Part shown: positions 2,437 through 45,106 of the stretch, piece after piece | How positions within the stretch are numbered: the first letter of the stretch is position 1 | How the letters are laid out: each line of letters begins with the position of its first letter | Assembly: GCF_001650905.1 (NCBI RefSeq) | Contig: NZ_LXYG01000015.1 | Location: 101,615 to 165,614, forward strand | Length of the DNA: 64,000 nucleotides | Reading direction: 5' to 3' | Origin: Balneola sp. EhC07 | GTDB lineage: Bacteria > Bacteroidota > Rhodothermia > Balneolales > Balneolaceae | Translations under genes and position numbers: made by a program | Notes under the pieces: generated by a model | What the model was told of the DNA's origin: nothing | The model's database searches: none | Seen by the model: only the letters and a program-made list of their open reading frames with translations

Positions 2437-2942
2437 ATCACTGATTGCGCTGATTTTCTTTTACGCTGATTGCATCAGCGTAATCTGGTAAGGCCCATTT
2501 TCCTAGTTCCGTAGCTCCGCTGCGGAACTAACGGTTGGAGCTCAGCTCCAGAAATGTAGCAAAAGCGGTAAAAAGATGAGGCAGAGCCTCAAAACCGCAT
2601 TCCGAACGGGACGTTCGGAACGAGGAAAATCGTTTGATTGGGATTGTTCAATCTCAATAAAAAGAAGGGTCATCCTGAACTTGTTTCAGGATCTTTGTGA
2701 AGCCTAGATTCCATTAACTAGATCAAAAAACTCCTTAACAAGCTTGAACGATCCAACTGTAACTGAGGAATTTAAACTAGTAGAGCCTTCAAGCTCGGCG
2801 TTATACACATGAAATAGTTATTACTAATGGAAGCAAAGCTTCCGGGGGCATTCCGCACCGGAGGTACGGGACGAGGACAATGTCTATAAATTTATTTATT
2901 AACTTAGTGCGGGTTCTCTCTCTTACCTATAAACTCTTCTAT
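2437..2942. repeat. Gene-free stretch packed with palindromes and the longest copy of a dispersed repeat
   Basis: About 500 bases without a gene. It holds a 10-bp perfect hairpin at 2461-2483, a second at 2504-2530 (tagttccg/cggaacta), a tight palindrome at 2536-2550, a gaggc/gcctc hairpin at 2578-2590 and an 8-bp stem at 2600-2620 (ttccgaac/gttcggaa). From 2617 to 2876 runs a 260-bp element that recurs at 14475-14711, with its last third also at 5413-5520. The 2548-2607 part recurs at 4045-4103. It includes the palindrome cctgaa-cttgt-ttcagg. None of the stems is followed by a clear T-run, so I do not call a terminator. Confidence 0.8.
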
Positions 2943-4007
2943 ATGAAATTCTATTACATAGTATTGGTTTTATACTTAATGAATTGTACTTCAAACAATA
3001 ACGATATTGAGGTGCCATTTAAACAATTAGAGCCCTTTATTAATGAAGTAAATGTATCTAGTGTGAACATAGATGATATACCAATTACTGAGATTAATAT
3101 TGATGCTAAAAATATACTGTTCTATTTAGACGAAGAAGTTGACAGTCTTACCACACTAGGTTCTGTCATTAAAGTAACTAATGGGTTTGTATTTTATGAT
3201 TTGGGTACTAAAAGGCTATATAATTATAGTACTGAAGGGAAAGAAGCAAAACCATTTGCAAACGAAGGGAGAGGTCCCGGAGAAGTAAACAATGTAAGAC
3301 ACATAGACGAAAACTCGGAATATATCTATGTGTCGGATAGCGGAAACCGTAGGATAAATATTTACGATCAGCAGCTTAATTTCTTTAGAACTGAAACAGA
3401 GATATACTCAAATGAGTTTTATGTGAATGATAGCTTTTTTGTATCAGAAAACTCCCTATACAATGGGGCTAGAGACTTAATAATAGTTAAGGAAATTGAT
3501 GATTTTAATATAAACAAAGCTACTTTAATGCCAAGGTTGGTTCCATTAGGTTATCAACCAAGATCACTTAATGGAACACATTTTTCATTTAATGATAACA
3601 ATGTTTTAGTTACTGCTTATTCAGCTATTCCTTGGATATTTATATTTGATGATCAATTCGAACCGAAGCAGACGATTGTTTTTTCTAAATCGAGTTTTGA
3701 TACACTCAATACATGGCAATTGAAAATAGAGAAAGAAGTAATGGGGAAAAGTTATTTTGGGAGAAACCCGATTACAAATATTAAAGTCGTAGATAATGGG
3801 GATATATTTATAGGGCTAAGAAATGAGTTGTTAGTTTTGTCTAAGAATAAATCAGATATGTATGAACCTGTTAAAAGATTGGTATTCAACCCTACATCTG
3901 AATCAATTGATCAAAAGTATTTCGGAATTTATAATAAGGTAATTGGATCGGATGGTGAAAGAGTTTTCATACATAATTATAATTATTTGTTCTGGATAAA
4001 CTTATGA
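2943..4007 (+). CDS. Secreted lipoprotein with six-bladed beta-propeller fold
   Basis: A 354-residue predicted lipoprotein. The chosen ATG starts MKFYYIVLVLYLMNC, a signal peptide with a lipobox-like LMNC (Cys15). An earlier in-frame ATG at 2880 would add 21 residues and sits inside the upstream repeat, so it is rejected. The body has beta-propeller character: short strands with YIYVSDSGNRRINIYDQQ-type NHL/6-bladed-propeller blades and the motif GRGPGEV, which is shared as G-[RK]-G-P-[GK]-E with the next two genes. Propellers of this type in Bacteroidota are usually annotated '6-bladed beta-propeller' or BF3164-like lipoprotein; the ligand is unknown. The gene is noticeably more AT-rich than rpoN upstream. 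Confidence 0.7.
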   Translation: MKFYYIVLVLYLMNCTSNNNDIEVPFKQLEPFINEVNVSSVNIDDIPITEINIDAKNILFYLDEEVDSLTTLGSVIKVTNGFVFYDLGTKRLYNYSTEGKEAKPFANEGRGPGEVNNVRHIDENSEYIYVSDSGNRRINIYDQQLNFFRTETEIYSNEFYVNDSFFVSENSLYNGARDLIIVKEIDDFNINKATLMPRLVPLGYQPRSLNGTHFSFNDNNVLVTAYSAIPWIFIFDDQFEPKQTIVFSKSSFDTLNTWQLKIEKEVMGKSYFGRNPITNIKVVDNGDIFIGLRNELLVLSKNKSDMYEPVKRLVFNPTSESIDQKYFGIYNKVIGSDGERVFIHNYNYLFWINL

Positions 4008-4044
4008 TTATGAGGACTCCAATCAAACTTTCTTAATTTCAATT

Positions 4045-4103
4045 CTGGAATGTAGTAAAAACCTTGAAAAGATAAGGCAGAGCCTCAAAACCACATTCCG
4101 AAC
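4045..4103 (+). repeat. Partial copy of the dispersed repeat
   Basis: This stretch matches 2548-2607 nearly base for base (aaatgtag...aaggcagagcctcaaaac...cattccgaac). Only the left part of the longer element is present, and it lies in the gap between the first two beta-propeller genes. Confidence 0.75.
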
Positions 4104-4174
4104 TAGAGTCGTATTGTCAAGTTTATTATTAATTGATATTTGCTTCTAATCCATAGAATGATATACTGTATAGT

Positions 4175-5335
4175 ATGAGATTAATAATTACATCCTTTCT
4201 AGTAAGTCTTTTGCTAACAGGTTTACCCAAAAAGGGTAACGAATATTCAGACGTACAATTTCAAAAACAAGTTGAGTTTGGGACCAACAACGAAATAATT
4301 GTAGGAGATGTCACTGCGTTGTCAGTTGATGCTAAAGGACAAGTCTTTATCGCTGACGGAACTCAAACAACGATCCACATTTTTAGTCCTGATGGTACAT
4401 ATATCCAATCAATGGGCAGGGAAGGTAAAGGTCCGGGAGAATTTTCTGCTATTACTTTTAATACCTCAATAGAAATTCATCAAGACAAACTATTCATTAC
4501 AGACACCCAAACCTTTTTTCCGCATAGAGCTCATGTTTTTTCATTACAGGATTTCTCATTCGATTATACACTAAAGCTCCTGGCTGAAAACAGAGGCGAT
4601 TACGAAGAATTAAAAGGACATTATCCCAAAAGAGTGATTCCTCAAAAAGATGGGACTTTTTTAGTGTCTTACCACAAAACGCCACATCAGTATAAAGACA
4701 GCACAAGTTACATTAAGTATTATGTACAGGATATTTTCGGTAAAATTGTTTCCGGGCCGATTTTCAAACAGAAAGATCGCACTAATTTAACTTATTTAGT
4801 GAAGGATGAGTATCCATATATAGCTATACATTCTTTTCCTTTTTTTGGAAAAACAATTCTTGATATTTCAGAAGATGAATATTTATATGCATTGAAATCG
4901 AAAGAATTTAAGATCGATATTTATGATTCAAACGGAGGTTATTTAAGGTCTATTGAACATAAATTCGAGAATAGAATATTTAGTAAGAGTAAAGTTTTAG
5001 ATCGGTACAAGGAAACGGATTACGGATACAATCTGGGTGATGGAGTAGCTTTAAAAATGATAGAGCAGGCAGAAAACCTTCCTGAAATCTGGCCGGCGAT
5101 AGATCATATGTTTATTGATGACGAAAATCGTATTTGGGTTTCAACTATTGTTGATAATGATGAAGTATATGAATGGTGGATTTTAGATAACTCAGGGGAA
5201 CTAATACATAAATTTGAATGGCCAAGAAATCAACCAATTCAAACCGTTAGGAATAATAAGCTGTACACTATTGAAGAAAATCCAAAAACATTTGAAAAGG
5301 AAGTGGTCCAATATCAGATTCTAATGAACGAATAA
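4175..5335 (+). CDS. Secreted six-bladed beta-propeller protein (NHL-like)
   Basis: A 386-residue protein with an N-terminal hydrophobic signal (MRLIITSFLVSLLLTG) but no lipobox cysteine, so it is probably exported without a lipid anchor. NHL/propeller blades are visible: GQVFIADGTQTTIHIFSPDG (about 50-70), EDEYLYALKSKEFKIDIYDSNG (about 230-255) and ENRIWVSTIVDNDEVYEWW (about 310-330). The motif GREGKGPGEF near residue 80 matches GRGPGEV and GRGPKEV in the flanking genes, so the three are likely ancient tandem paralogues. The role is unknown. It lies between two copies of the dispersed repeat. Confidence 0.7.
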   Translation: MRLIITSFLVSLLLTGLPKKGNEYSDVQFQKQVEFGTNNEIIVGDVTALSVDAKGQVFIADGTQTTIHIFSPDGTYIQSMGREGKGPGEFSAITFNTSIEIHQDKLFITDTQTFFPHRAHVFSLQDFSFDYTLKLLAENRGDYEELKGHYPKRVIPQKDGTFLVSYHKTPHQYKDSTSYIKYYVQDIFGKIVSGPIFKQKDRTNLTYLVKDEYPYIAIHSFPFFGKTILDISEDEYLYALKSKEFKIDIYDSNGGYLRSIEHKFENRIFSKSKVLDRYKETDYGYNLGDGVALKMIEQAENLPEIWPAIDHMFIDDENRIWVSTIVDNDEVYEWWILDNSGELIHKFEWPRNQPIQTVRNNKLYTIEENPKTFEKEVVQYQILMNE

Positions 5336-5766
5336 TTTTCCGCATTATAATCAACACAACCAAACGGACTGTGGACCTACTTGTTTTCCAATAATAATTT
5401 AGTAACGTAGGTTTTAAACTAGTAGAGCCTTCAGGATCGGCGCTATACACATGAAATAGCTTTTTTACTAATGGAAGCAGAGCTTCCGGGGGCATTCCGC
5501 ACCGGAGGTACGGAACGAGGGTAAGAAGAAAGAGAAAGTGAGCATAGATTTAAGAGAAATATGCTTGGACACAACATAACTCTATCAGCTAAGTATAACT
5601 ATGACTTGCATATAAGATTAAATTAATTTTAATTGAAGTAAATACAATAGGGAGGACATACAAAATATAGATTTCAAAATAAGCGTCAATATTACCCTTG
5701 TACTTATTTTGTTTGGAAGAGATAAAAGGGCACAATAAAGTGTCCTTTTCAAATTTAAAAACTTAG
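5336..5766. repeat. Gap with repeat copy (5413-5520) and a leader hairpin (5724-5749)
   Basis: Bases 5413-5520 are a third copy of the right-hand third of the dispersed element, from tttaaactagtag to acgagg, and are very close to 2771-2876. The remaining 240 bases are AT-rich with no supported gene. Just before the next gene an imperfect stem, aaaagggcac/gtgtcctttt with a six-base loop (5724-5749), could be a weak terminator or a leader structure. Confidence 0.65.
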
Positions 5767-6798
5767 ATGAAAAAAGCCTTTTTAGTACTTCTCGTTTTAG
5801 GACAATTTATTTCTTGTCAAAGTAGGAAAGAACAGTCTCATTTTTTAGATACTAAAGTTCAACATATGGAACAAAGGAATTTGGTGTCTGGTGAGCTTAA
5901 TCTCGAATTCGAAAAAGACTTAGATGATGTAGATATTTTTAACTATAAAAACATCGTTGAACTTGATTCAAGTTTCCTACTTGCTAAAAAAGAAAGTTCG
6001 GAATTAGTTTTTTTGGATAAAACTACGCTGAATTTGAATAAGTCTTTTAGAATAAAAGAAGGAAGAGGCCCTAAAGAGGTTGAGTATATCATGGCTTTTG
6101 ATGCTAACGAAGATATGATCGTAGTTGCGGATAATAAACTATTAAAAATATTACAATTTGATCATGATGGTAATCTGATTCGTGAATTTAAAACAAAGGA
6201 AAAAATTCCACATAGACTAAGTTTGTCATCTGATAATTCTATGCATATAATGAACGAAGTTTTTTTTGATGATCTAAAAGATGGGTTTCTAGAAAATATT
6301 ACAATCTTAGGTGATAAAAATTATACTTATGCTAAAGAAAACTTAAAAGATTTACATCCTTTTGGCACAGAAGGAAATATTAAGAGTGTTAAAGACACTG
6401 TTTATTATTTAGGAGCTTACGAACCTTTTATAAAAAAGTACCTAAATGGAGAACAGATATATTCAAGATCTACATTAGATAATTATGATACATCGGTTAA
6501 TTATATTACCGTAATTAGCAATGATAGTCGATCTACCAGCTTAAGCCCTGCTGCAATCTTTTCTTCCAGAGACTTTGACGTAAAAAAGGGATCCATTTTT
6601 GTTATACCATATAGCAATGGCGATAATGATTTTTCATTTATTGATGTATATGCTTCCAAAGATGGTTCTTATATTAAATCATTTCGAACTATAGATGTGC
6701 CTGACAAAATCAATGTATATGAAGAGGAGAGATCTATATTGACTATAGAAAAAGTAGGGGATCTGGAAAAGCCCGTATTCAGAAAGTATAGCTATTAG
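5767..6798 (+). CDS. Beta-propeller lipoprotein (BF3164-like)
   Basis: A 343-residue predicted lipoprotein. The N-terminus MKKAFLVLLVLGQFISC gives a clear signal peptide and lipobox (FISC, Cys17). Blade-like segments include SSELVFLDKTTLNLNKSFRI, EDMIVVADNKLLKILQFDHDG and FIDVYASKDGSYIKSF. The motif EGRGPKEVEYI near residue 100 is the third version of the G-x-G-P-x-E signature shared with the two upstream genes. It is the last of the three-gene propeller set and stands about 155 bases before the first RND permease. Function is unknown; a surface or periplasmic binding role is an inference from fold and location. Confidence 0.68.
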   Translation: MKKAFLVLLVLGQFISCQSRKEQSHFLDTKVQHMEQRNLVSGELNLEFEKDLDDVDIFNYKNIVELDSSFLLAKKESSELVFLDKTTLNLNKSFRIKEGRGPKEVEYIMAFDANEDMIVVADNKLLKILQFDHDGNLIREFKTKEKIPHRLSLSSDNSMHIMNEVFFDDLKDGFLENITILGDKNYTYAKENLKDLHPFGTEGNIKSVKDTVYYLGAYEPFIKKYLNGEQIYSRSTLDNYDTSVNYITVISNDSRSTSLSPAAIFSSRDFDVKKGSIFVIPYSNGDNDFSFIDVYASKDGSYIKSFRTIDVPDKINVYEEERSILTIEKVGDLEKPVFRKYSY

Positions 6799-33688: not shown

Positions 33689-34882
33689 ATGAAAAAACTT
33701 ACCCTTACCGATATTCAAGTAAAAGATAAAAAAGTACTTATGCGCGTTGATTTTAACGTGCCTTTGAAAGATGGAGTGATCACAGATGACAATCGGATAG
33801 TACAGGCTTTACCATCAATAAATTATGTAGTAGAACATGGCGGTTTATTGATATTAACAAGTCATTTAGGACGTCCTGATGGTAAACCAAATGCTGAGTT
33901 TTCATTAAAAGCTGTTGCGGATCATTTGGCTTCATTGGTTGATGCTAAAGTTCATTTTGCTACTGATTGCATCGGAGATGAAGCTAAAAAGGTAATAGAA
34001 CAAGCTAATTTTGGTGAGATCGTTTTACTCGAAAATGTTCGATTCCATAAAGAAGAAACTGATAACGATGAGATCTTTAGTGGTCAATTAGCCAGCCATG
34101 CTGATATTTTTGTAAATGATGCATTTGGAAGTTCTCACAGAGCACATGCTTCTGTAGCAGGGGTAACTCAGTTTATGGAGCAGTCTGCTTCGGGTTTTTT
34201 ACTGGAAAAAGAGATCAAATATTTAAGTGAAAGCGTAAACAATCCCGATAGACCTTTTGTGGCAATTTTAGGTGGAGCTAAAGTTTCTGATAAGATCGGA
34301 GTGATCGAAAATCTTCTGAACAAAGTAGATACCATTATTATTGGCGGGGGAATGACGTACACATTTTATAAAGCGTTAGGTTTGCCAATTGGTAATTCTT
34401 TGTTAGAGGAAGACAAAATCGAACTGGCTAAAGAATTGATCCAAAAAGCTAAAACAGCAGGTGTTAAATTAATGTTGCCGATGGACTCAGTAGTAGCCAA
34501 AGAATTTGACAATGATGCCGAACATAAAGTTGTAAATGACAATGGGATAGAAGATGGTTGGATGGCACTTGATATTGGCCCACAGTCAGCTATTTCGTAT
34601 GGTAATGTGATCAAGATGGCGAAAACGGTACTTTGGAATGGACCGATGGGTGTTTTTGAAATGAGTAATTTTGCGGATGGTACATTTGCCGTTGCAGAAT
34701 CGCTTGCTGAGGCTACAAAGTTTGGAGCAACAACGATCATAGGTGGGGGAGACTCAGCTGCCGCTATTAAAAAATCCGGATTGAATGATCAGGTTTCTCA
34801 TGTATCAACCGGAGGTGGAGCCAGTTTAGAGTATCTGGAAGGTAAGGAACTTCCGGGTGTTAGTTCGTTGACTGATAATTAA
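33689..34882 (+). CDS. pgk: Phosphoglycerate kinase
   Basis: A 397-residue glycolytic kinase transferring phosphate from 1,3-bisphosphoglycerate to ADP. The signature [11 protein letters not shown] is at residues 16-26, with substrate-binding SHLGRPDGK (about 57-65), the hinge and nucleotide region GGAKVSDKI, and the C-terminal GGGDSAAAI and [13 protein letters not shown]. Length and motifs are normal. It is transcribed alone or with the following DUF3857 gene, 44 bases downstream; no strong terminator is visible between them. Confidence 0.97.
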
Positions 34883-34926
34883 TAATCAAGTAATTTATTA
34901 TTAATTATTTAAAAACTAGTGCCCTA

Positions 34927-36921
34927 ATGAAAACACGTATCAATTTTATATTTCTTTTTCTTTTAATCTCCGGAGTTTTGGTTGCGCAACCTAAAAAGTT
35001 TGGAAAAGTTTCAGCTACTGAGCTAACCCAGAAATTTAGCGCAGCAGATTCAAATTTTAATGCGGTTGTTTTATTTGATTACGGTCAGTATTCAATTGAA
35101 AAAGATTTCGTTTATACAGTTGAAAGACATAAAAGAATTAAAATTTTAAATGAAAACGGATTAGGAGAAGCTAGTTTTAGGTTTGTATATAATCCAACCA
35201 GGGACTATGATCAAAAATTAGATAAAGTTGAAGCCTTTACATTCAATCTTAATTCTAAACGTAAAGTAGATAGAATTAAATTCGACGATAAAAATTTGAT
35301 TGTTCAGGATATGGAAGGTGGTTTTAAAAGCGTTTCTTTTACGATGCCACAAGCTAAGGCCGGTACAATTATAGACATTCGTTACATACTTGAATTAGGA
35401 AGCGCCGGACAGCTTCCGAACTGGTATTTTGATGATAGCATACCTGTTAAATGGAGCGAATTAGTTGCTGAAATTCCTAATTTCCACAGGTTTGATATAA
35501 TATCCCGGATATCAAGCAAACTAGATATAAACGAAGCTAAACCTACTGAAATTGGGATCAGATATGAATACAAGCCAGAAAATACGAATTACGTAACAAA
35601 GAAATTAAGAATGTCTTCTCCTGCACAGAAATTCAGATGGGCTATGAAAGATGTTCCTCCTATAATTTCGGAACCATATTTAAGTTCTTATGAAAACTAC
35701 AGGTCTTATATTTTACTTCAATTTACGGGAATTGATATTCCAAATTATAGTATTAAAGAAGATTATACTAGTTCATGGCAGGAAGTAAGTAATACATTAC
35801 TCGAAGATGAAGATTATGGCGGACGTTTAAATACAGGGAATTGGGTAATACCTGTTTTAGAAAATATTGGTGATTTTGAATCAAAAAAACATCAATTAGA
35901 GAGTATTTTTAGTTATGTAAATTCTTTCAACTGGAATGGTTCGAATAGAATTTACACAACAAAAAATCTACAAGATGTAAATAAGGATAAGAGTGGTAAC
36001 TCTGTAGAACTAAATCTTTTGTTGGTTCTTTTATTAAGGGAAGCAGGGTTTAATGCCGATCCATTAATTCTTAGTACAAGAAGCAATGGGCGAATTATTA
36101 AAGGCTTTATACTCCCCGATCAGTTCAATAAAACTATTGCGGTAGTAAATTTAAACGAAGAAAAATATTTTCTTGATGCTACAAGTGAATTTAAAACTAC
36201 AATGCTTAGCCGAGAAAATTTAAATGAAGCAGGCTTACGGGTAAAAGAGTTTAATGCAGTTTGGGAACCTCTTGTCAATTCAGACATAAGTAAAACAGAA
36301 GTTGATGTAGATTATAAACTGAAAGACGATAGTTCAGTACAGGGCTCAATAAATCTAATTTTAGAAGGAGAGGACGCCTTATACTTTAAAAAGTCATTTT
36401 ATCAAGATTCTGTGGCTCTATTAAAAGAATATTTGGGTTTTGAAGGAAGAGATTTGGTTATAGAGGAAACCAATTTCGAGGGTGGTACTTTTTATAAACC
36501 GACAATTAATTTCTCTGCTGATTTTAATGTTACAGCCTTACCAAATGAAAGCAACAAAGAAAGTATTTATATTGATCCAGCATCTTTTCAATTTCTAGGA
36601 TTAGAAGAACTGACTAATAGTTATCGAGTTTCACCTATCGAATTCCCATCAAAATTTATTCGCAAAATTGATTTTAGAATTGAGTTACCAGAGGGGTATC
36701 AAGTTGATGGATTGCCCGATGACACAACAATTGTTGTACCGGATAAAATTTTCAATTATGTGGAATATTATGGTGAAAGAGAGAATGTAGTAATCGTTGA
36801 AAAGAATTTAGTGGGCTTGGATAATCAATTACCTCGTGATTCTTATCCTACTGTAAAGTCAATTTTCTCTATTATTTCTAAACCACCGAAAACAATAGTA
36901 ATTAAAAAAGTTGGTGAATAA
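34927..36921 (+). CDS. Secreted DUF3857 protein with inactive transglutaminase-like domain (module 1, A)
   Basis: 664 residues with a signal peptide ending LVAQ (residue 21). The N-terminal DUF3857 domain spans about 45-245 and the transglutaminase-like domain about 315-425, with an Ig-like C-terminal domain to the end. In the transglutaminase core the catalytic Cys position is Ser359 (SGNSVELN against YGDCKALT in its partner) and the His position is Lys402 (QFNKT against QFNHV). Only Asp417 (FLDAT) is kept, so it should have no catalytic activity. It overlaps the next gene by 11 bases. Its closest relative in the window is the gene at 40656. Confidence 0.85.
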   Translation: MKTRINFIFLFLLISGVLVAQPKKFGKVSATELTQKFSAADSNFNAVVLFDYGQYSIEKDFVYTVERHKRIKILNENGLGEASFRFVYNPTRDYDQKLDKVEAFTFNLNSKRKVDRIKFDDKNLIVQDMEGGFKSVSFTMPQAKAGTIIDIRYILELGSAGQLPNWYFDDSIPVKWSELVAEIPNFHRFDIISRISSKLDINEAKPTEIGIRYEYKPENTNYVTKKLRMSSPAQKFRWAMKDVPPIISEPYLSSYENYRSYILLQFTGIDIPNYSIKEDYTSSWQEVSNTLLEDEDYGGRLNTGNWVIPVLENIGDFESKKHQLESIFSYVNSFNWNGSNRIYTTKNLQDVNKDKSGNSVELNLLLVLLLREAGFNADPLILSTRSNGRIIKGFILPDQFNKTIAVVNLNEEKYFLDATSEFKTTMLSRENLNEAGLRVKEFNAVWEPLVNSDISKTEVDVDYKLKDDSSVQGSINLILEGEDALYFKKSFYQDSVALLKEYLGFEGRDLVIEETNFEGGTFYKPTINFSADFNVTALPNESNKESIYIDPASFQFLGLEELTNSYRVSPIEFPSKFIRKIDFRIELPEGYQVDGLPDDTTIVVPDKIFNYVEYYGERENVVIVEKNLVGLDNQLPRDSYPTVKSIFSIISKPPKTIVIKKVGE

Positions 36922-38824
36922 GTCCGCAATATTCATTTCAATACTTTTTCTGGTAACATGCTCTTCGAATCATGGGATGACGGAAAAAGTTTACGATAGT
37001 CAGTATATCAATGAATTGAATAAAAGAGTTGGCGCATTTCAGGAAGAAGATTTTTTTGTAAATAACTCTGAAACTGAAATTAAAATAAAAGCTGACGATA
37101 AGGTTACAAAAACTGTCAGGAAAGAAATAGTAGTACTTAATGAAAATGGTAGAAGAGAGTCTGAGCTAGTTTTATTTTATGATTCATTTATTAAAATAGA
37201 AGAAATTAAAGCAAGTATTTATTCAGTTGATGGAGTGAAGATCAAAGATATTGATGCTGATGATATACGAGACTTACCAATATTAGAATCTGCATCCTCT
37301 TTTGGTGACAGTAGAATTAAATATATCTCTTTTAATCATAACAAATATCCTTACATAATTGCATATGAGTATGAAGAGAGCAGTACTAATTTTCTTTATA
37401 AATTAAACTGGGTTCCTGAAGAACAAAACATTTATACAAATTCTGTTTCTTTAAGGCTTGAATACCCGAAAGGATTAAAAGTTAATATCAAGGATTTGAC
37501 TAAAAGTTTTAACCTGAATGAATTTGAGACAAAAAAATCAGAAATTCTTGAATGGAAAAAATCTAAGGGTATTAAAAACAGAGCATTAGGTGAAGGATTA
37601 GAAAGGGTACTGATTCAGCCTCTAAAATTTAGTGTATCAAACAATAAGGGGAGTTTTAAAGATTGGGAGAGTTTTGGACACTGGTATCATACATTAAACC
37701 AGGGACGACAAGAACTAAGCGATGAAAAAAAGAAAGAACTAGATAAAATACTTGCAAAAGCTAAAACTCGATCAGAAAAAATAGAAACAATTTATAATCA
37801 CCTTCAAGAGAATTCCAGATATATAAGTATTCAATTGGGAATTGGTGGATGGCAGACTTTTCCGGCTAGCTTTGTAGAAAAAAATGGGTATGGAGATTGT
37901 AAAGCTTTAACCAATTTTACTTTTGCTATGTATGAGTATGCGGGTATTGAAGCATATCCTGTTTTGATCAATAGTGGATTGGATGTAGAACCACTTATTG
38001 AGGACTTTCCAAGCAATCAATTTAATCATGTAATTTTATATCTCCCTAATAAAGGGGATGAGATATGGCTCGAATGTACAAGCCAAATAATGCCTTTCAA
38101 TTATATAACATCTTATAATGCAAATAGATATGGTTTAAAGATTACAAATGAAGGTGGAGAGCTAATTAAAACACCATCTTTAACTTCTGAAACGAACTAT
38201 GTTTTTTCATCTACTTTTGTATCCTTAGAAGAAAGTAACAATGCTGTAATACAAAGAAATATTAGTAAAGCCAGTGGAGAATACTTAGAGAAATATTATT
38301 TCGGTTTTGCTAATAAAACAGAACAGCAAAAAGTAGGTTGGCTCAATGAAAATTTTAAAATTAAGGCCGATCGTTATTTTTCTATTGAAACATCTGCTAT
38401 TGATAGAAAAGAAAACCCTGTTTCATTTTCTTATTCAATAACTACTGACGATTATTTCAGGAAATCGGGGGACAGGATATTTTTTTCAACCTATCAGTTT
38501 AAAGAACCGGGGGCATATAATGAACATACTAAAGTAATTTATTACCCCTCCAAAGAAGTTGATTCTATCTCTGTAAAAATACCAGTGGGTTATAAAATTG
38601 AAGTTCTCCCTAAGGACACTAGCATCAGTAACCGGTTCGTAGATTATTCTTTACACATAAAAGTTGATACAAAGAAAAATATTTTATCCATTATTAGAAC
38701 TTTTATTCTAAAAAAAGAAATACAGAGTAAATTCGAAATAGAAGAACTTCAAGCTTCTTTAAAGCGAATAGATGTATTAGATGAAAAGGATATAATATTT
38801 AAAAAATTGATCGATCAGGATTAA
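36911..38824 (+). CDS. DUF3857/transglutaminase-like lipoprotein, catalytic residues intact (module 1, B)
   Basis: A 637-residue lipoprotein: MVNKSAIFISILFLVTC, lipobox LVTC (Cys17). DUF3857 lies about 45-240 and the transglutaminase core about 285-400. Catalytic Cys330 is in GYGDCKALTNF, His373 in QFNHVIL and the acidic residue Glu388 in WLECTS. The start is TTG at 36911 (GTG at 36914 is also possible). TTG is preferred because the paralogous pair at 42601 uses ATG at the same 11-base overlap and both proteins then begin M-x-NK. The activity may be a transglutaminase, peptidase or amidase; substrate unknown. It is probably co-translated with its inactive partner. Confidence 0.85.
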   Translation: MVNKSAIFISILFLVTCSSNHGMTEKVYDSQYINELNKRVGAFQEEDFFVNNSETEIKIKADDKVTKTVRKEIVVLNENGRRESELVLFYDSFIKIEEIKASIYSVDGVKIKDIDADDIRDLPILESASSFGDSRIKYISFNHNKYPYIIAYEYEESSTNFLYKLNWVPEEQNIYTNSVSLRLEYPKGLKVNIKDLTKSFNLNEFETKKSEILEWKKSKGIKNRALGEGLERVLIQPLKFSVSNNKGSFKDWESFGHWYHTLNQGRQELSDEKKKELDKILAKAKTRSEKIETIYNHLQENSRYISIQLGIGGWQTFPASFVEKNGYGDCKALTNFTFAMYEYAGIEAYPVLINSGLDVEPLIEDFPSNQFNHVILYLPNKGDEIWLECTSQIMPFNYITSYNANRYGLKITNEGGELIKTPSLTSETNYVFSSTFVSLEESNNAVIQRNISKASGEYLEKYYFGFANKTEQQKVGWLNENFKIKADRYFSIETSAIDRKENPVSFSYSITTDDYFRKSGDRIFFSTYQFKEPGAYNEHTKVIYYPSKEVDSISVKIPVGYKIEVLPKDTSISNRFVDYSLHIKVDTKKNILSIIRTFILKKEIQSKFEIEELQASLKRIDVLDEKDIIFKKLIDQD

Positions 38825-38838
38825 CCAAGGAATTTAAA

Positions 38839-39771
38839 TCACTCCCCAAAAATCTGATTTAGGTATTCGGCCATACGGTAGCCAGAAAGTGCCATTCTCT
38901 TTTGAGCGATCTTATAGGCCATTTCTTTGTATTCCTGAGAAGGCTGTTCATCTTGTTTCAGATCTTCCGGATATACTTTTTCCATTGTGATCTCTTTTCC
39001 TTCCTTATTCCAAACTGTTGAATTCTGAAGATCTATTAAGACTTTAAATTCTGATTTTGGATGCTTTTTTTCGATCATTTCAGCATTGGCAAGATAGTAG
39101 TCGAAATCGTCAACATCATCATCTTTAGGGTTTGCTACATCTATGATTCCATCCCAGTACGCGTGTAAATTCCATGGCCAGCTGTCACCAAATCTGAAAC
39201 TATTTCCGCCACGGTCCCCGTCAGGTGTATCTTCAGTCACGCGTGAAGTATTATGCAACGGCATATGAATATCACCAACTAAATGAAGAACCCATGCAAT
39301 TTGAATAGCTTTTTCTTCTGCAGATACTTCAGAACTGTTGAGGGTTTCTCTGAATAAAGCGATACGCTCCACAATGTGCTCATCATCAACAAAGCCTTCT
39401 GCATCAACCGGACCGTCCTCTGTCTGCTTCCAGTAACTGCCAACATAATGCCACGGACCTTTATGGTATTTGTCATAACGAGCTTTTTCATCTCTGTCAC
39501 GAACTACATCAGGCCAATACGCAGCGTTCATAAAATAATATTTATCCGCATGTTCACTTTCCTCATCATAGAATTCCATCAGGTCAGAGTCCTCTGGTGC
39601 TTGCTTGAGGATAAACATAATATTCTCTTTAGCAACAGGAGTAAGATTATCCCAGGCAATAGCAGCAATTACACGATGACCGGTTGCATTCCAGGAAATA
39701 CCCGATGTTGGATTTAACGTTAGCGTTAGAAGAAATGAGAGTGCGAGTGTAGAAGCTAGAATTTTTTTCAT
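38839..39771 (-). CDS. Secreted S1/P1-type zinc nuclease
   Basis: A 310-residue exported nuclease. The signal peptide is about 1-26, so that Trp27 becomes the mature N-terminus that chelates zinc, as in S1/P1 nucleases. All nine expected ligands can be found: Trp27, His32 (WNATGH), Asp88 (WPD), His108 (PWHYVG), His163, Asp167 and His173 (HLVGDIHMPLH), and His203 and Asp207 (LHAYWD). The last five keep exactly the P1 spacing. It should cleave single-stranded DNA/RNA and 3'-nucleotides outside the cytoplasm, perhaps for phosphate or nucleotide salvage. It converges with the lipoprotein gene at 36911 with a 14-base gap. Confidence 0.93.
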   Translation of the reverse strand: MKKILASTLALSFLLTLTLNPTSGISWNATGHRVIAAIAWDNLTPVAKENIMFILKQAPEDSDLMEFYDEESEHADKYYFMNAAYWPDVVRDRDEKARYDKYHKGPWHYVGSYWKQTEDGPVDAEGFVDDEHIVERIALFRETLNSSEVSAEEKAIQIAWVLHLVGDIHMPLHNTSRVTEDTPDGDRGGNSFRFGDSWPWNLHAYWDGIIDVANPKDDDVDDFDYYLANAEMIEKKHPKSEFKVLIDLQNSTVWNKEGKEITMEKVYPEDLKQDEQPSQEYKEMAYKIAQKRMALSGYRMAEYLNQIFGE

Positions 39772-39854
39772 GAGCCTGATTTAATTTCAATTTCACTAAG
39801 GATACGAAACAACCATTATCAAAACATTAAAAGAAGGCAAAAATTATATAAAAA

Positions 39855-39880
39855 AAGCTCACTGTTTTCACAATGAGCTT
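39855..39880 (-). terminator. Rho-independent terminator of the DinB-fold gene
   Basis: A 10-bp stem with one mismatch (aagctcactg 39855-39864, loop ttttca, caatgagctt 39871-39880), followed on the minus strand by a T-run (the plus-strand A7 up to base 39856). It lies directly after the minus-strand gene ending at 39903. Confidence 0.8.
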
Positions 39881-39902
39881 AAAGGAATTGATCCAGAACT
39901 AA

Positions 39903-40493
39903 TTACATCGCATTCATTTCTGCCAATACTTCCTGCATCTGGAATGTGTGTCTCTGGCTGTGAGCGGCAATAATTAGCATGATCTGGTAGACATCTGCAT
40001 CGCCGAAAGGAAGAGCCGTAACATGACCTCTGAGATCAGCATCTGTAGAGCTTAAGAACTCAACGAGTTTAGTTCTCGACTTTTCTAATTCTGATAACAT
40101 TTCAGCTTTGGAAGACCATTTCCCTGAAGGCTCGAATGGTGGAGCTGTTTTAACTTTAGTCCCTCTGTTTGCCAGCATACCGATCAGCGCTCCATCCTGA
40201 GCGGAAAGATCTTTCTCCGACATTGTTTCGTCATTAGCTAATGTTCCTTGTGCCATTCCAAAGAATGCTGTTTCAGTAAGCAGGATATGTTCTAAAGCAT
40301 TCGAAACAGACCAGCCGCCATCTTCAGGTTTATAGTTAAAAGACTCTTCCGGAAGATCTTTTACAGCTTCAACAATATTTGCATGCGTTGTTTCAAGATA
40401 ATTGATAGCAAAATCTTTTTCGGCTTGACTTAACTGAGCCGTTAAAGGCATTGTTAAAACCCCAAATCCAATAATTAGTAGTAGTTTTTTCAT
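39903..40493 (-). CDS. Exported DinB-fold protein
   Basis: 196 residues with a signal peptide ending MPLTAQ (residue 20). The DinB/YfiT four-helix fold is indicated by the metal-binding His triad: His69 in NALEHILLTE, and His178 and His182 in AAHSQRHTFQM. Most DinB-family proteins are cytoplasmic metal-dependent thiol transferases or nucleases; an exported version is common in Bacteroidota but has no known substrate. It lies between the two DUF3857 modules on the opposite strand, beside the S1/P1 nuclease but separated from it by its own terminator. Confidence 0.85.
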   Translation of the reverse strand: MKKLLLIIGFGVLTMPLTAQLSQAEKDFAINYLETTHANIVEAVKDLPEESFNYKPEDGGWSVSNALEHILLTETAFFGMAQGTLANDETMSEKDLSAQDGALIGMLANRGTKVKTAPPFEPSGKWSSKAEMLSELEKSRTKLVEFLSSTDADLRGHVTALPFGDADVYQIMLIIAAHSQRHTFQMQEVLAEMNAM

Positions 40494-40655
40494 GATGCTC
40501 GAATTAGTTAATAGTTACCTGAGTAACAATTAACTATATAAAAAGGGGACAAACAAAAAAAGAGATAACTATGAACACAAAAAACTTAAAGAAAAACTGT
40601 AAATAATTAATTATGTTCGCCTATCAACTAAAAAAATATGCTAACTACTCTTGTG

Positions 40656-42611
40656 ATGATTAAAAATTTTACCCTGTTCTTGATTGTATTGTTCATGTTT
40701 ATCCCGCACCTAACAGAAGCTCAAAAAAGGGATTTCGGCGATATTTCAAAGCAAATGATCGAAATGGATGTATACGAAAAAGATTCAACAGCCAGTGCAG
40801 TTGTGATCTTTGACGTAGGAGACGCAGAGCTGGACAATAGGTTGGAAGTTCAATTCAGAAGACATATCAGGATCAAAATTTTGACTGATGAAGGATTTAC
40901 ATATGGAGATTTTTCAAAAAGGTATATAGAAAAGAAACCTGAACAGGATATATCAAAGATAAAAGCAGCTACTTACAATCTGGAAAATGGTGAGATTATA
41001 AAAACTGAACTGGATAAAGATGACATCTTAATTGATAAAGAAGGGGATGGGTATACTGAAGTAAAGTTTACGATGCCAGCCTTACGTCCGGGCTCAATTA
41101 TAGAATATGAATATCTATTTGAATCTGAATCTCCACTTGATCTACCGGATTGGGACTTTCAAAAGTCAATCCCAAGTATGTGGAGTGAATACATGATCAG
41201 AATTCCGGAATGGTTCAGATATTTAAAAGTATCAAGAGGATATGAACCATTCTTCAGTATTGAAGAGAAACCTTACCAAAGTGGAGGACGTCAAAATTAT
41301 GTTGGTACTGAATCTACCTGGGTCATGAAAGATATACCCGCGATAGAAGAAGCTCCTTATATGAAATCTATAGATAATTATAGATCAGCAATTAAATTTC
41401 AACTAGCCAATATAACAGTGCCGGGTGTTGTTTATGAAGATTATTTATCTGATTGGCCAAGAGTAGGGGGAGCTTTAGCGGAATCATCGAGCCACGGTAA
41501 AACACTCAAGAGGAATAAGTTTTTAGCCAATGTCTTGGAAGACATTATTTCAGAGGAAGATTCTGAATTGGAGAAAATGAAAAAGATATATAGTCATGTT
41601 TCAAGCCATATGAATTGGAATGAGATGCTTTCATTTAATGCTTCACAGGATCTGGAAGATTCTTATAAAGAAGGAGATGGGAATAGTGCTGACATCAACT
41701 TGATGCTTGTTAATATGCTTAAAGAGGCAGGGTTAAGTGCTCATAGTGTGGTTTTGAGTACAACTGATCATGGAGATGTGATCCGGATGTTCCCTTTGAT
41801 TTCACAGTTCAATCATGTTATTGGTTATGTAGAAATTGGTAATGACTTCTATTTTTTAGATGCAAAAAATGAGAAAAGGCCATTTAATTTACTTCCCGCA
41901 AATTCTATAAATAGTGTTGGGTTTTTGATCGATATTCCAAAAAAGCAGTTTAAGTGGATAAATATTGAAAACAAGGATGAAAACAACCTGAGTATTTATA
42001 TAGATGCTTCGCTGAATGAAGATGGGAAATTGGTTGGAGTGTTGAATTCCAAATCAAATGGATATTATGCACATTACACCAGAGAAGAATTTGAAGATGA
42101 AGACGATATAAAAGAAAGCATTAAGCAAAATACTTTTAGTGACCCTGTTAATACTGTAATTGACTCTGCGAATGTTAAAGAGAGTGAACTACATGAGGAT
42201 CTAAGATTCAGTGCGCATTTTGAGGTTTCAGCAAATATATCAGGAAACGTGATCTATTTAAATCCCATGATCGTAGAGCGTTTATTAGACAATCCATTTA
42301 AGGAAGAAGAACGCGTATTTCCTATCGATTTTGATTATACATTTGATGAAACCGTTACTTTGAGATTCACAATACCGGAAGGCTGGAGTGTGGATGAAGT
42401 TCCATCATCAAAAATTTTCAGAACCCCTGATGAAAGTGCAAATTACAGAAAGCTTTTCCAGGTAGCGGGAAATACTATTATGATGCAGTATAAATTTAGT
42501 ATCAGTAAGCATAATTATAATCCTGAGGACTACTTGTTCTTAAAAGACTTTTTTAAAGCATTAATTGAAAACCAATCTGAGCAAATAGTTTTAAAGAAAA
42601 ATGAAGAATAA
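40656..42611 (+). CDS. Secreted DUF3857 protein with Cys-less transglutaminase-like domain (module 2, A)
   Basis: 651 residues from the preferred ATG at 40656 (MIKNFTLFLIVLF; an ATG at 40638 would add six residues). The signal peptide ends TEAQ. The layout follows the gene at 34927: DUF3857, transglutaminase-like core, C-terminal beta domain. The catalytic Cys is replaced by Ser344 (DGNSADINL), but His387 (QFNHVIG) and Asp402 (FLDAK) remain, so this copy has lost less than module 1 A. It overlaps the next gene by exactly 11 bases, as in module 1. A binding or partner role for the active lipoprotein is an inference. Confidence 0.85.
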   Translation: MIKNFTLFLIVLFMFIPHLTEAQKRDFGDISKQMIEMDVYEKDSTASAVVIFDVGDAELDNRLEVQFRRHIRIKILTDEGFTYGDFSKRYIEKKPEQDISKIKAATYNLENGEIIKTELDKDDILIDKEGDGYTEVKFTMPALRPGSIIEYEYLFESESPLDLPDWDFQKSIPSMWSEYMIRIPEWFRYLKVSRGYEPFFSIEEKPYQSGGRQNYVGTESTWVMKDIPAIEEAPYMKSIDNYRSAIKFQLANITVPGVVYEDYLSDWPRVGGALAESSSHGKTLKRNKFLANVLEDIISEEDSELEKMKKIYSHVSSHMNWNEMLSFNASQDLEDSYKEGDGNSADINLMLVNMLKEAGLSAHSVVLSTTDHGDVIRMFPLISQFNHVIGYVEIGNDFYFLDAKNEKRPFNLLPANSINSVGFLIDIPKKQFKWINIENKDENNLSIYIDASLNEDGKLVGVLNSKSNGYYAHYTREEFEDEDDIKESIKQNTFSDPVNTVIDSANVKESELHEDLRFSAHFEVSANISGNVIYLNPMIVERLLDNPFKEEERVFPIDFDYTFDETVTLRFTIPEGWSVDEVPSSKIFRTPDESANYRKLFQVAGNTIMMQYKFSISKHNYNPEDYLFLKDFFKALIENQSEQIVLKKNEE

Positions 42612-44535
42612 AATTAATGTCCGTTTAAGCACAATTCTGATATTTCTGTTTGTATTGAATTGTGGTGGAACTCAAGAAATTTATGAAGCTGAAACACTTT
42701 CATATTCTTACGAGATGTCTGAATGGGATAAAGATGTAAATTCAGTTGTCAGAAATCATGAAACAGAACTGGAATATATCAACCAAAATAGTGCTGTTCT
42801 AAGAGTGAAGGAAGCCATAACAATTCTGGATAAAGAGGATAAACATCTTGCTAATGTCTATCTACACTATGATAAATTCAGAAGTATCGACTTCATAAAT
42901 GCTAATATAATTGATAAAGATGGTAATCTCGTCAGATCATTTACTTCGGATGATGCCTATGATTTCAGTTCGGCAGATGGCTACACCTTCTTTTCTGATA
43001 GCAGGGTAAAACTTTTAGAGCTGTTTCATAATGACTTTCCATATACAATAGTTACTGATTATCAGATCAAGTACAACGGGTTGTTGAATTTACCGACTTG
43101 GTATCCGTTGTGGTATGACCAAATTGTAGAGCAGTCAGAATTGAGGATCATAGATAGAACCAATGGAAGTTTAAAATATCATGCAGATGGTTTTGATGAA
43201 AAGCCTACCATTTCTGATTCCACAATTGGGAAGATCTATACATGGAATTTTAGTAATGATGAGCCAATGACGAATGAGCCTTTAAGTCCGCCTGCACCTG
43301 AGGTCTTACCAAAAGTTTTAGTTGCTCCCATAATTTTTGAAATAGAGAATACCTATGGATCAACCAGCTCATGGGAAGAATTTGGTCAATGGTATTATCT
43401 TTTGGGTAAAAATGAGAGAGAATTGAGCGATGCAGCAAAAAAGGAGGTAGATGCAGTCCTTGATGGAGTGGAAAACGAAAAACAGAAGGTAAAAGCTCTT
43501 TACAAATACCTGCAGCAAAAAACGAGGTATGTTAGCATTCAATTAGGTATCGGGGGGTGGAAACCATTTTCTGCAGATTATGTTTTTAATAACGAATACG
43601 GAGATTGTAAAGCTTTAACTAATTTTATGCAGGCTGTACTTGAGTATGCAGGAATAGAATCTCATCCGGCACTTATTAGAAATGGTGCTGATGAACCGGA
43701 TCTAATAGCAGACTTTCCAAGCAGTCAGTTCAACCACGTTATTCTAAGAGTTACTCTTTCTGATGGAGAACATATTTGGCTTGAGTGTACAAGCGCATAC
43801 ATGCCTTTTGGCAGTATTGGTAATGGGAATGAAAATAAACAAGCTCTGTTAGTTACTCCAACAGGAGGAGAACTAATTGAAACGCCTAAAAGACCTTATT
43901 CTCTAAATAATCAGGAAATCGTCTCGCATGTATTATTATCAAAAAATGGCGAAGCGAGTATAAATGTTAATATTAAAAGTGAAGGGGTTGTTCGCGATCA
44001 GGTTTTACATGAAATCTTACCCAAATCAGAAAAAGAAAGAGTAGAATGGTTATCAACTAGTTATGATATTCCCAATTCTGATATTATAGGTATCAATTTT
44101 GAAGATCTTATAGACGATGATCCTAACTACAATTTTGATTTTTCTTTTAAAAAAGAGAGTTATGCTTCAGCTTCTTCAAAGCGTTTGTTTGTGCCGGTTA
44201 ATGTATTGAGCAATTGGAACGTTAGTTTTTCTAATGAAGAAGACCGAAAGTTTGATGTTTGGTTACCTGTTACTTTTCAGGAAAAAGACAGCACAATTTT
44301 TAATATACCTGAAGGCTTTGTCCTTGAAGGAATTCCGAAATCAGAAAATATTGAGAACAGTTTTGCTTCTTACAATGGATCATTTGAAAAATTAGACTCA
44401 AACAAAGTTCTTTTTACAAGGATCTTCAGTATTAAGTCAAGAAAATTAAAACCTGAACAGTATCCGGATTTTATAGACTTTATGAACGAAGTTTCACGAT
44501 TAGATAATCAACAAATGGTACTTGTATTGGAATAA
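42601..44535 (+). CDS. DUF3857/transglutaminase-like lipoprotein, catalytic residues intact (module 2, B)
   Basis: A 644-residue lipoprotein with lipobox FVLNC (Cys21) and ATG at 42601. The transglutaminase core keeps Cys336 (EYGDCKALTNF), His379 (QFNHVIL) and Glu395 (WLECTS). The stretch YVSIQLGIGGW before the catalytic Cys is nearly identical to YISIQLGIGGW in the gene at 36911, while the rest has diverged widely, so the duplication is old. It ends 10 bases before a strong terminator. It is probably outer-membrane anchored and faces the periplasm or surface. Confidence 0.85.
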   Translation: MKNKINVRLSTILIFLFVLNCGGTQEIYEAETLSYSYEMSEWDKDVNSVVRNHETELEYINQNSAVLRVKEAITILDKEDKHLANVYLHYDKFRSIDFINANIIDKDGNLVRSFTSDDAYDFSSADGYTFFSDSRVKLLELFHNDFPYTIVTDYQIKYNGLLNLPTWYPLWYDQIVEQSELRIIDRTNGSLKYHADGFDEKPTISDSTIGKIYTWNFSNDEPMTNEPLSPPAPEVLPKVLVAPIIFEIENTYGSTSSWEEFGQWYYLLGKNERELSDAAKKEVDAVLDGVENEKQKVKALYKYLQQKTRYVSIQLGIGGWKPFSADYVFNNEYGDCKALTNFMQAVLEYAGIESHPALIRNGADEPDLIADFPSSQFNHVILRVTLSDGEHIWLECTSAYMPFGSIGNGNENKQALLVTPTGGELIETPKRPYSLNNQEIVSHVLLSKNGEASINVNIKSEGVVRDQVLHEILPKSEKERVEWLSTSYDIPNSDIIGINFEDLIDDDPNYNFDFSFKKESYASASSKRLFVPVNVLSNWNVSFSNEEDRKFDVWLPVTFQEKDSTIFNIPEGFVLEGIPKSENIENSFASYNGSFEKLDSNKVLFTRIFSIKSRKLKPEQYPDFIDFMNEVSRLDNQQMVLVLE

Positions 44536-44545
44536 AATGTATACC

Positions 44546-44573
44546 CAAGTATTAATACTTGAATTTTTTTTTT
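44546..44573 (+). terminator. Rho-independent terminator after the second DUF3857 module
   Basis: The perfect palindrome caagtattaatacttg (44546-44561) is followed by ten T (44564-44573). It closes the transcript that begins at 40656 and separates it from ssb. Confidence 0.85.
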
Positions 44574-44644: not shown

Positions 44645-45106
44645 ATGAGTTCACTAAATAAAGCACAATTAATCGGAAGACTCGGGCAAGATCCTGAAGT
44701 AAGATACACGCAATCAAACACAGCTGTGGCTACATTAAGCATAGCTACAAGCGAGCGTTATAAAGACAGTAACGGCGAGCAGCAAGAAAAAACTGAATGG
44801 CATCGTGTGGTTGCATGGGGAAGACTGGCTGAAATTTGTCAGCAGTATTTAACTAAAGGTTCATTGGTTTATATTGAAGGACCGATTCAAACCAGATCAT
44901 GGGAAGACAACCAAGGTCAAAAAAGATATACCACTGAAATTAAAGCCCTTCAAATGACCATGCTTGACAGCAAAGGCAGTGGCGGAGGAAACCCGGGTGG
45001 TAATCAAGGTGGAAATCAAAATGCCGGCAATCAAAAACAACAGATGTCCAGCAATGTTGAGCTTGGGAAAGATTTTGATAATATGGATGATGATCTTCCA
45101 TTTTAG
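44645..45106 (+). CDS. ssb: Single-stranded DNA-binding protein
   Basis: 153 residues. The OB fold covers 1-108 ([59 protein letters not shown]). A Gly/Asn/Gln-rich linker follows (about 113-137), with the conserved acidic tip DDDLPF that recruits repair and replication proteins. It is followed by its own terminator and then gldE; ssb-gldE adjacency is common in Bacteroidota. Confidence 0.97.

Follow-up and report, generated by a model that had tools for sequence, protein, structure and literature searches.

Proteins that combine a DUF3857 domain with a transglutaminase fold are common in Bacteroidota, and no described function was found for them. The stretch analysed here, a window of 64,000 nucleotides on contig NZ_LXYG01000015.1 of Balneola sp. 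EhC07, contains two neighbouring pairs of genes of this kind, named A1B1 (module 1) and A2B2 (module 2). It raises a simple question: why should a protein that has lost its catalytic cysteine (A) be kept beside a relative that retains it (B), and why twice in the same region? The first part of the answer is that the locus encodes enzyme-pseudoenzyme pairs, in which a dead paralogue is maintained by selection next to an active one.

An inactive paralogue under selection

The four open reading frames (ORFs) are all intact where the original prediction placed them. Its description of each pair as a secreted inactive protein followed by an active lipoprotein also holds. At the aligned triad positions, B1 and B2 read Cys-His-Glu, A2 reads Ser-His-Asp and A1 reads Ser-Lys-Asp, serine taking the place of cysteine in both A proteins. 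As read from the sequences, the A proteins carry a Sec-type signal peptide, and B1 and B2 a lipobox-like cysteine. All four pass the Pfam cut-off of 24.6 bits for DUF3857 (PF12969), with scores of 31.2 (A1), 64.5 (B1), 39.9 (A2) and 64.7 bits (B2), and they are exactly the four DUF3857 matches of the whole genome (3.62 Mb, 20 contigs). The scores for Transglut_core (PF01841, cut-off 23 bits) are 28.5 bits for both A2 and B2, 22.4 for B1 and 13.5 for A1, and B1, A2 and B2 show C-terminal traces of DUF3858. In both pairs the last 8-11 bp of A are shared with the B frame, an arrangement compatible with translational coupling. Between the modules, A1 and A2 are 30% identical and B1 and B2 32%.

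The same division of residues is seen in the relatives of these proteins. Among 127 B proteins, the triad is Cys-His-Glu in 122 and Cys-His-Asp in 4 (126 of 127 for the two forms together). The catalytic cysteine is found in a single one of 180 A proteins, while the acidic position is Asp in 178. The A proteins also possess conserved features of their own, namely Asn348, Gly373 and, beyond the strand that comes after the former cysteine helix, an STRx[HN]G loop. In the trees all A proteins form one clade and all B proteins another (support 96 and 99), and this is still the case when the triad columns are left out (100/99 and 100/100). The loss of the cysteine is therefore ancient and was inherited by both A1 and A2. 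Between G000 and the sister species G007 (G and L numbers designate the genomes and loci compared), the ratio of nonsynonymous to synonymous substitution rates (dN/dS) is 0.067 for A2 and 0.057 for B2, the seven flanking genes ranging from 0.030 to 0.102. Since this ratio is low, the active-site Asp is kept and the STRx[HN]G loop is present, A is not a decaying gene.

It might be argued that A2 is itself catalytic, serine replacing cysteine in a Ser-His-Asp triad, and this combination does occur in 21 of the 180 A proteins, A2 among them. Such a role is highly improbable, however: most A proteins have Val, Ala, Gly, Ile or Gln at the cysteine position and 106 of the 180 have Tyr for His, yet the family is still constrained, and A1 reads Ser-Lys-Asp.

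Linkage of the two genes and a proposed two-subunit enzyme

The association of A and B was examined in a 148-genome sample of the phylum by comparing coordinates by hand, a strong full-length B being defined by a score >400 bits and a full-length A by a score >=300 bits. Strong B proteins are encoded by 41 genes in 39 of the 148 genomes, and all 41 genes lie within about 400 bp of an A gene; one genome of this survey, G126, is a second case with two pairs. An independent scan, of named genomes, used the B alignment as query, did not require the presence of A, and confirmed at least 582 B relatives. It yielded 80 named B loci from Balneola, Pontibacter, Hymenobacter, Rufibacter, Chitinophagaceae, Saprospiraceae, Bacteroidales and others. 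An A gene adjoins B or lies within 2.7 kb of it in 79 of these 80 loci (a partial A cut off by the end of a contig being counted as present), the exception being L161. The gene order varies (A-B, A-A-B, B-A and B-A-A); in 106 of 126 cases B lies downstream of A in the same orientation, with at most 50 bp between the two genes in 79. No third partner is conserved across genera, the neighbours changing clade by clade. The A-B pairs that the original prediction proposed to look for are found throughout Bacteroidota, and because the same arrangement recurs across the phylum, the pairing is more than chance.

This linkage, the selection acting on A, the conserved residues near its former active site and the joint displacement of both genes (see below) favour a complex between A and B. 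It is proposed, with moderate confidence, that A and B together form a single cell-envelope enzyme, most likely a heteromeric thiol-amidase in which A is the pseudoenzyme subunit. B would be a secreted thiol enzyme of the transglutaminase fold with a Cys-His-Glu triad, lipid-anchored in Balneolaceae to judge by its sequence, that may cleave or transfer amide bonds of envelope peptides or proteins. A would be an anciently inactivated paralogue in which the fold and the triad Asp are preserved and the STRx[HN]G loop has been added next to the former active site. Its part might be to bind the substrate, B or both, and so to set the specificity or the activity of B. From the protein families and the signal sequences, a physical complex, amidase chemistry and a periplasmic site may be inferred. 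Lipidation of B, which had been taken as part of the design, was rejected as a conserved trait of it. A lipobox-like cysteine occurs in 32 of 124 B proteins, some of these matches being spurious, mainly in Balneolaceae, and B is mostly a plain secreted protein elsewhere.

Several observations weigh against a two-subunit enzyme. A is found without a strong B in 5 of the 44 A-bearing genomes (G065, G014, G013, G133 and G143), and further lone A copies exist in genomes that also carry a pair. Balneolaceae possess a lone-A subfamily without B (L014, L016, L019, L021, L028-L031 and L105), in most members of which the catalytic cysteine is replaced by Gln, and solo active DUF3857 proteins also exist. 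The module appears dispensable, because several genomes of the genus Balneola and of its family are devoid of any such gene. Finally, the A-B distance correlation is 0.82, and it is still 0.77 when the lone A from these genomes is compared with B instead. This comparison is uninformative, and coevolution of A and B is not demonstrated, since the correlation hardly exceeds that of the lone-A control.

These facts leave room for A and B to share a pathway without forming a complex, A binding peptides or a partner alone, B acting independently and the operon serving expression only. The lone A genes, the solo active relatives and a mirror-tree comparison that does not single out the neighbouring A would all suit such a shared pathway. 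It is regarded as possible, if rather doubtful, given that the linkage of B to A is near-total over the phylum while the gene order shifts and no other neighbour is common. The two-subunit enzyme is thus preferred, in a form milder than the obligate partnership first envisaged: a neighbouring A is almost invariable for B, which lacks one in none of the 41 genes and in one of the 80 loci, and "obligate" is too strong a word for A. Even so, A without B is a minority situation, and the A and B trees agree where they can be compared, without sign of independent histories.

As nearly every B of this subfamily comes with a dead sibling, a pair of genes of "unknown function" can now be treated as a two-subunit enzyme whose existence is open to testing. 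Expression of a single gene may miss the activity, and the residues to mutate can be named: Cys336 in B, and the STRx[HN]G loop and Asp402 in A. Together, the data point to a type of cell-envelope two-subunit enzyme that was not previously described.

Probable separate origins of the two modules

A2B2 sits at the usual place of the family, upstream of ssb, and looks like a unit swapped in place. The flanking proteins are mostly 88-97% identical to those of G001 and G004 (the exceptions being murB, 78% in G001, and the DinB-like protein, 79-80%). A2 and B2 are only 39-44% and 42% identical to their counterparts in these genomes, which is no higher than between genera. The homology of the DNA breaks at the gene borders, ending at 40561 and restarting at 44566. 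The flank tree is (G001,(G004,(G000,G007))) with support of 95-100, and the clade formed by these four genomes is rejected by both A (p 0.007) and B (p 0.009), which shift alike. G001 and G004 are metagenome assemblies, but each cassette is embedded in a contig that is syntenic to the left and right of it, and the two genomes have a related allele.

That A2B2 is so little conserved between close Balneola species could also reflect fast evolution, or the sorting of ancestral tandem duplicates (hidden paralogy). Outside Balneola, A and B evolve moderately faster than their flanks without gross exchange; A-A-B arrays occur, so that some paralogy has to be admitted; and a grouping of the whole genus is compatible with A and B (p 0.13 and 0.09). 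Nevertheless, this explanation is unlikely. Mere speed is opposed by the slow evolution of the pair between G000 and G007, where A is 94% and B 96% identical with a dN/dS of about 0.06, too slow to produce some 42% identity amid such conserved flanks. Against the explanation as a whole stand the abrupt DNA borders on either side and the common rejection of the flank topology, and none of the sampled Balneolaceae genomes has a second B gene at this position. That close species appear to exchange the pair in place suggests a target of the enzyme that varies between populations. As a general rule such exchange was rejected, since it is not seen in Pontibacter, Hymenobacter, Rufibacter or Chitinophagaceae. 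Among the genera compared, gross exchange is limited to Balneola, the others showing only the moderately faster evolution of A and B.

Module 1 belongs to another, divergent lineage of the pair and was probably acquired from an unsampled source, coming to lie between pgk and the nuclease gene. In G007 these two genes are almost adjacent, with homologous DNA up to 34882 and again from 38836, and the outgroup G006 has no insert between them. Because both are devoid of A1B1 at this site, the module looks gained. A search of 129 genomes from the order and 394 from the phylum detected no full-length relative of B1 above 34% identity. The guanine plus cytosine (GC) content is 32% for A1 and 30% for B1, most other genes of the window having about 38-43%. 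The view that the module was duplicated locally is contradicted by the trees, in which B1 and B2 as sisters are rejected (approximately unbiased test, p 0.0009) and A1 and A2 as sisters are borderline (p 0.06). The accompanying claim that both pairs had been kept for a long time does not agree with the absence of A1B1 from G007 and from its site in G006, nor with the lack of close B1 relatives. In separate best trees, A1 and B1 group with the A and B of the same two loci (G023 and G119), weakly (60/52 and 78/73); B1 and the G023 protein form long branches that may attract each other.

A1B1 might alternatively be an ancient duplicate of the pair that descended vertically and was lost in relatives. 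A single group of all Balneolaceae B proteins, B1 included, is compatible with the data (p 0.16). The absence from G007 and G006, the isolation of B1 among the sampled genomes and the low GC content all oppose this origin, which is considered improbable. It also finds no support in the lone A genes that follow pgk in G001, G004, G012 and G020. These constitute a separate clade, and A1 as a diverged copy of them was rejected (p 2e-9). A gain of module 1 by this lineage is preferred. In close Balneola, the interval after pgk (window 34883-38835; L005, L008, L010 and L011) is occupied by A1B1, by a lone A with a PorV-like/barrel gene, or by nothing. At L005:246-344, past the lone A and an ORF of 389 aa, there is a 99-bp second copy of the 3' end of pgk; this repeat may be an assembly artefact, because the contig end carries an apparent sequencing adapter. 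Elsewhere in the window (2880-6798), three neighbouring AT-rich genes (GC 30-34%) encoding proteins of 343-386 aa resemble A1 and B1 in composition and possibly form an accessory block. The features of the locus are collected in Table 1.

Table 1. Genes and segments of the two modules and their borders (window positions; pLDDT, predicted local distance difference test).
Feature	Position	Strand	Remarks
A1	34927..36921	+	Secreted inactive DUF3857/transglutaminase-fold protein; triad positions Ser/Lys/Asp
B1	36914..38824	+	Lipoprotein with intact Cys-His-Glu; longest ORF from TTG 36911, GTG 36914 more likely
A2	40656..42611	+	Secreted inactive partner, Ser/His/Asp; AlphaFold pLDDT 93.7; start 40638 or 40656
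B2	42601..44535	+	Lipoprotein with intact Cys336-His379-Glu395; AlphaFold pLDDT 90.7
Module-1 segment	34883..38835		Sharp borders; missing from sister species G007; lone A and barrel-like gene after pgk in G001/G004
Module-2 segment	40562..44566		Divergent A-B or A-A-B cassette in G001/G004, DNA homologous on either side
pgk	33689..34882	+	Conserved left border of module 1
S1/P1-nuclease-like gene	38839..39771	-	Conserved right border of module 1
DinB-like gene	39903..40493	-	Left border of module 2
ssb	44645..45106	+	Right border of module 2; gldE-like, murB and M48 genes come next

Known structures, similar systems and other DUF3857 pairs

The closest structure is 3KD4 (BDI_1141 of Parabacteroides distasonis, deposited as "putative protease"). 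The A and B profiles matched no other PDB entry, and in a structure search 3KD4 is the top match of the A2 (E 3.5e-29) and B2 (E 4e-31) models. It shares with A and B the architecture DUF3857, PF01841 and DUF3858 (PF12970). In a weakly aligned stretch around residues 280-290 it reads YGTPL where B reads YGDCKAL; as no cysteine is present there, 3KD4 seems to be of the dead type too. No activity or partner of 3KD4 was found in the searchable literature. Likewise, the searchable papers, which leave most subscription journals and preprints outside, contain no description of the A-B pair and mention DUF3857 once in passing.

Two other groups of inactive transglutaminases can be compared with A. 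RloB is an inactive transglutaminase fused to seven transmembrane (TM) helices (PMC12239564), and an inactive transglutaminase of RloB-related type came from a screen for vesicle production (PMC12096838). The likeness to A lies in an envelope-exposed inactive domain with partner enzymes encoded alongside. However, the RloB type is a seven-TM inner-membrane protein whose partners are an aspartic protease and an ATP-grasp protein, whereas A is soluble, carries DUF3857 and has its own active paralogue as partner. The seven C-terminal TM helices are absent from the A2 model, which beyond residue 360 consists mostly of beta strands with three helices, and no such Pfam match was obtained. In polymorphic toxins, inactive transglutaminase domains have been proposed to anchor by binding peptides (PMC3482391). 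They share with A the loss of catalytic residues, but they are embedded in large RHS toxins without an active transglutaminase partner, and A retains its Asp.

Other tandem DUF3857 pairs with one intact and one dead member occur in Bacteroidota. In family II (L098:6409-10329, L108:6623-10431, L110:5762-9689 and L112:5022-8902), a Cys-His-Asp member stands beside one with Asp, Gln or Glu for Cys in which the acid is also lost. Two more pair types are families III (L246:4864-8720) and IV (L248:4565-8448 and L252:3833-7745), and in both family IV pairs the lipobox-like cysteine is on the dead member. The dead members of families II and IV cluster (97/98), and a single origin of all dead members is compatible with the data (p 0.47); they may all go back to a single ancestral dead subunit whose gene was duplicated along with that of its partner. 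More broadly, and quite tentatively, an active DUF3857-transglutaminase with a dead paralogue could be a general design of two-subunit envelope enzyme used by several pair families of Bacteroidota. One Balneola version would then be a horizontally swapped specificity cassette at fixed sites, as expected under conflict with phages, rivals or a variable surface substrate.

Two observations concern DUF3857 proteins outside such pairs. At L016, the lone A sits between an amidohydrolase/dihydroorotase-like gene and a TsaD-family gene. The proteins of about 1260 aa encoded at L233-L241 were considered as A-B fusions, and this was rejected: they consist of TPR repeats, according to a Pfam scan of L234, and one active DUF3857-transglutaminase unit.

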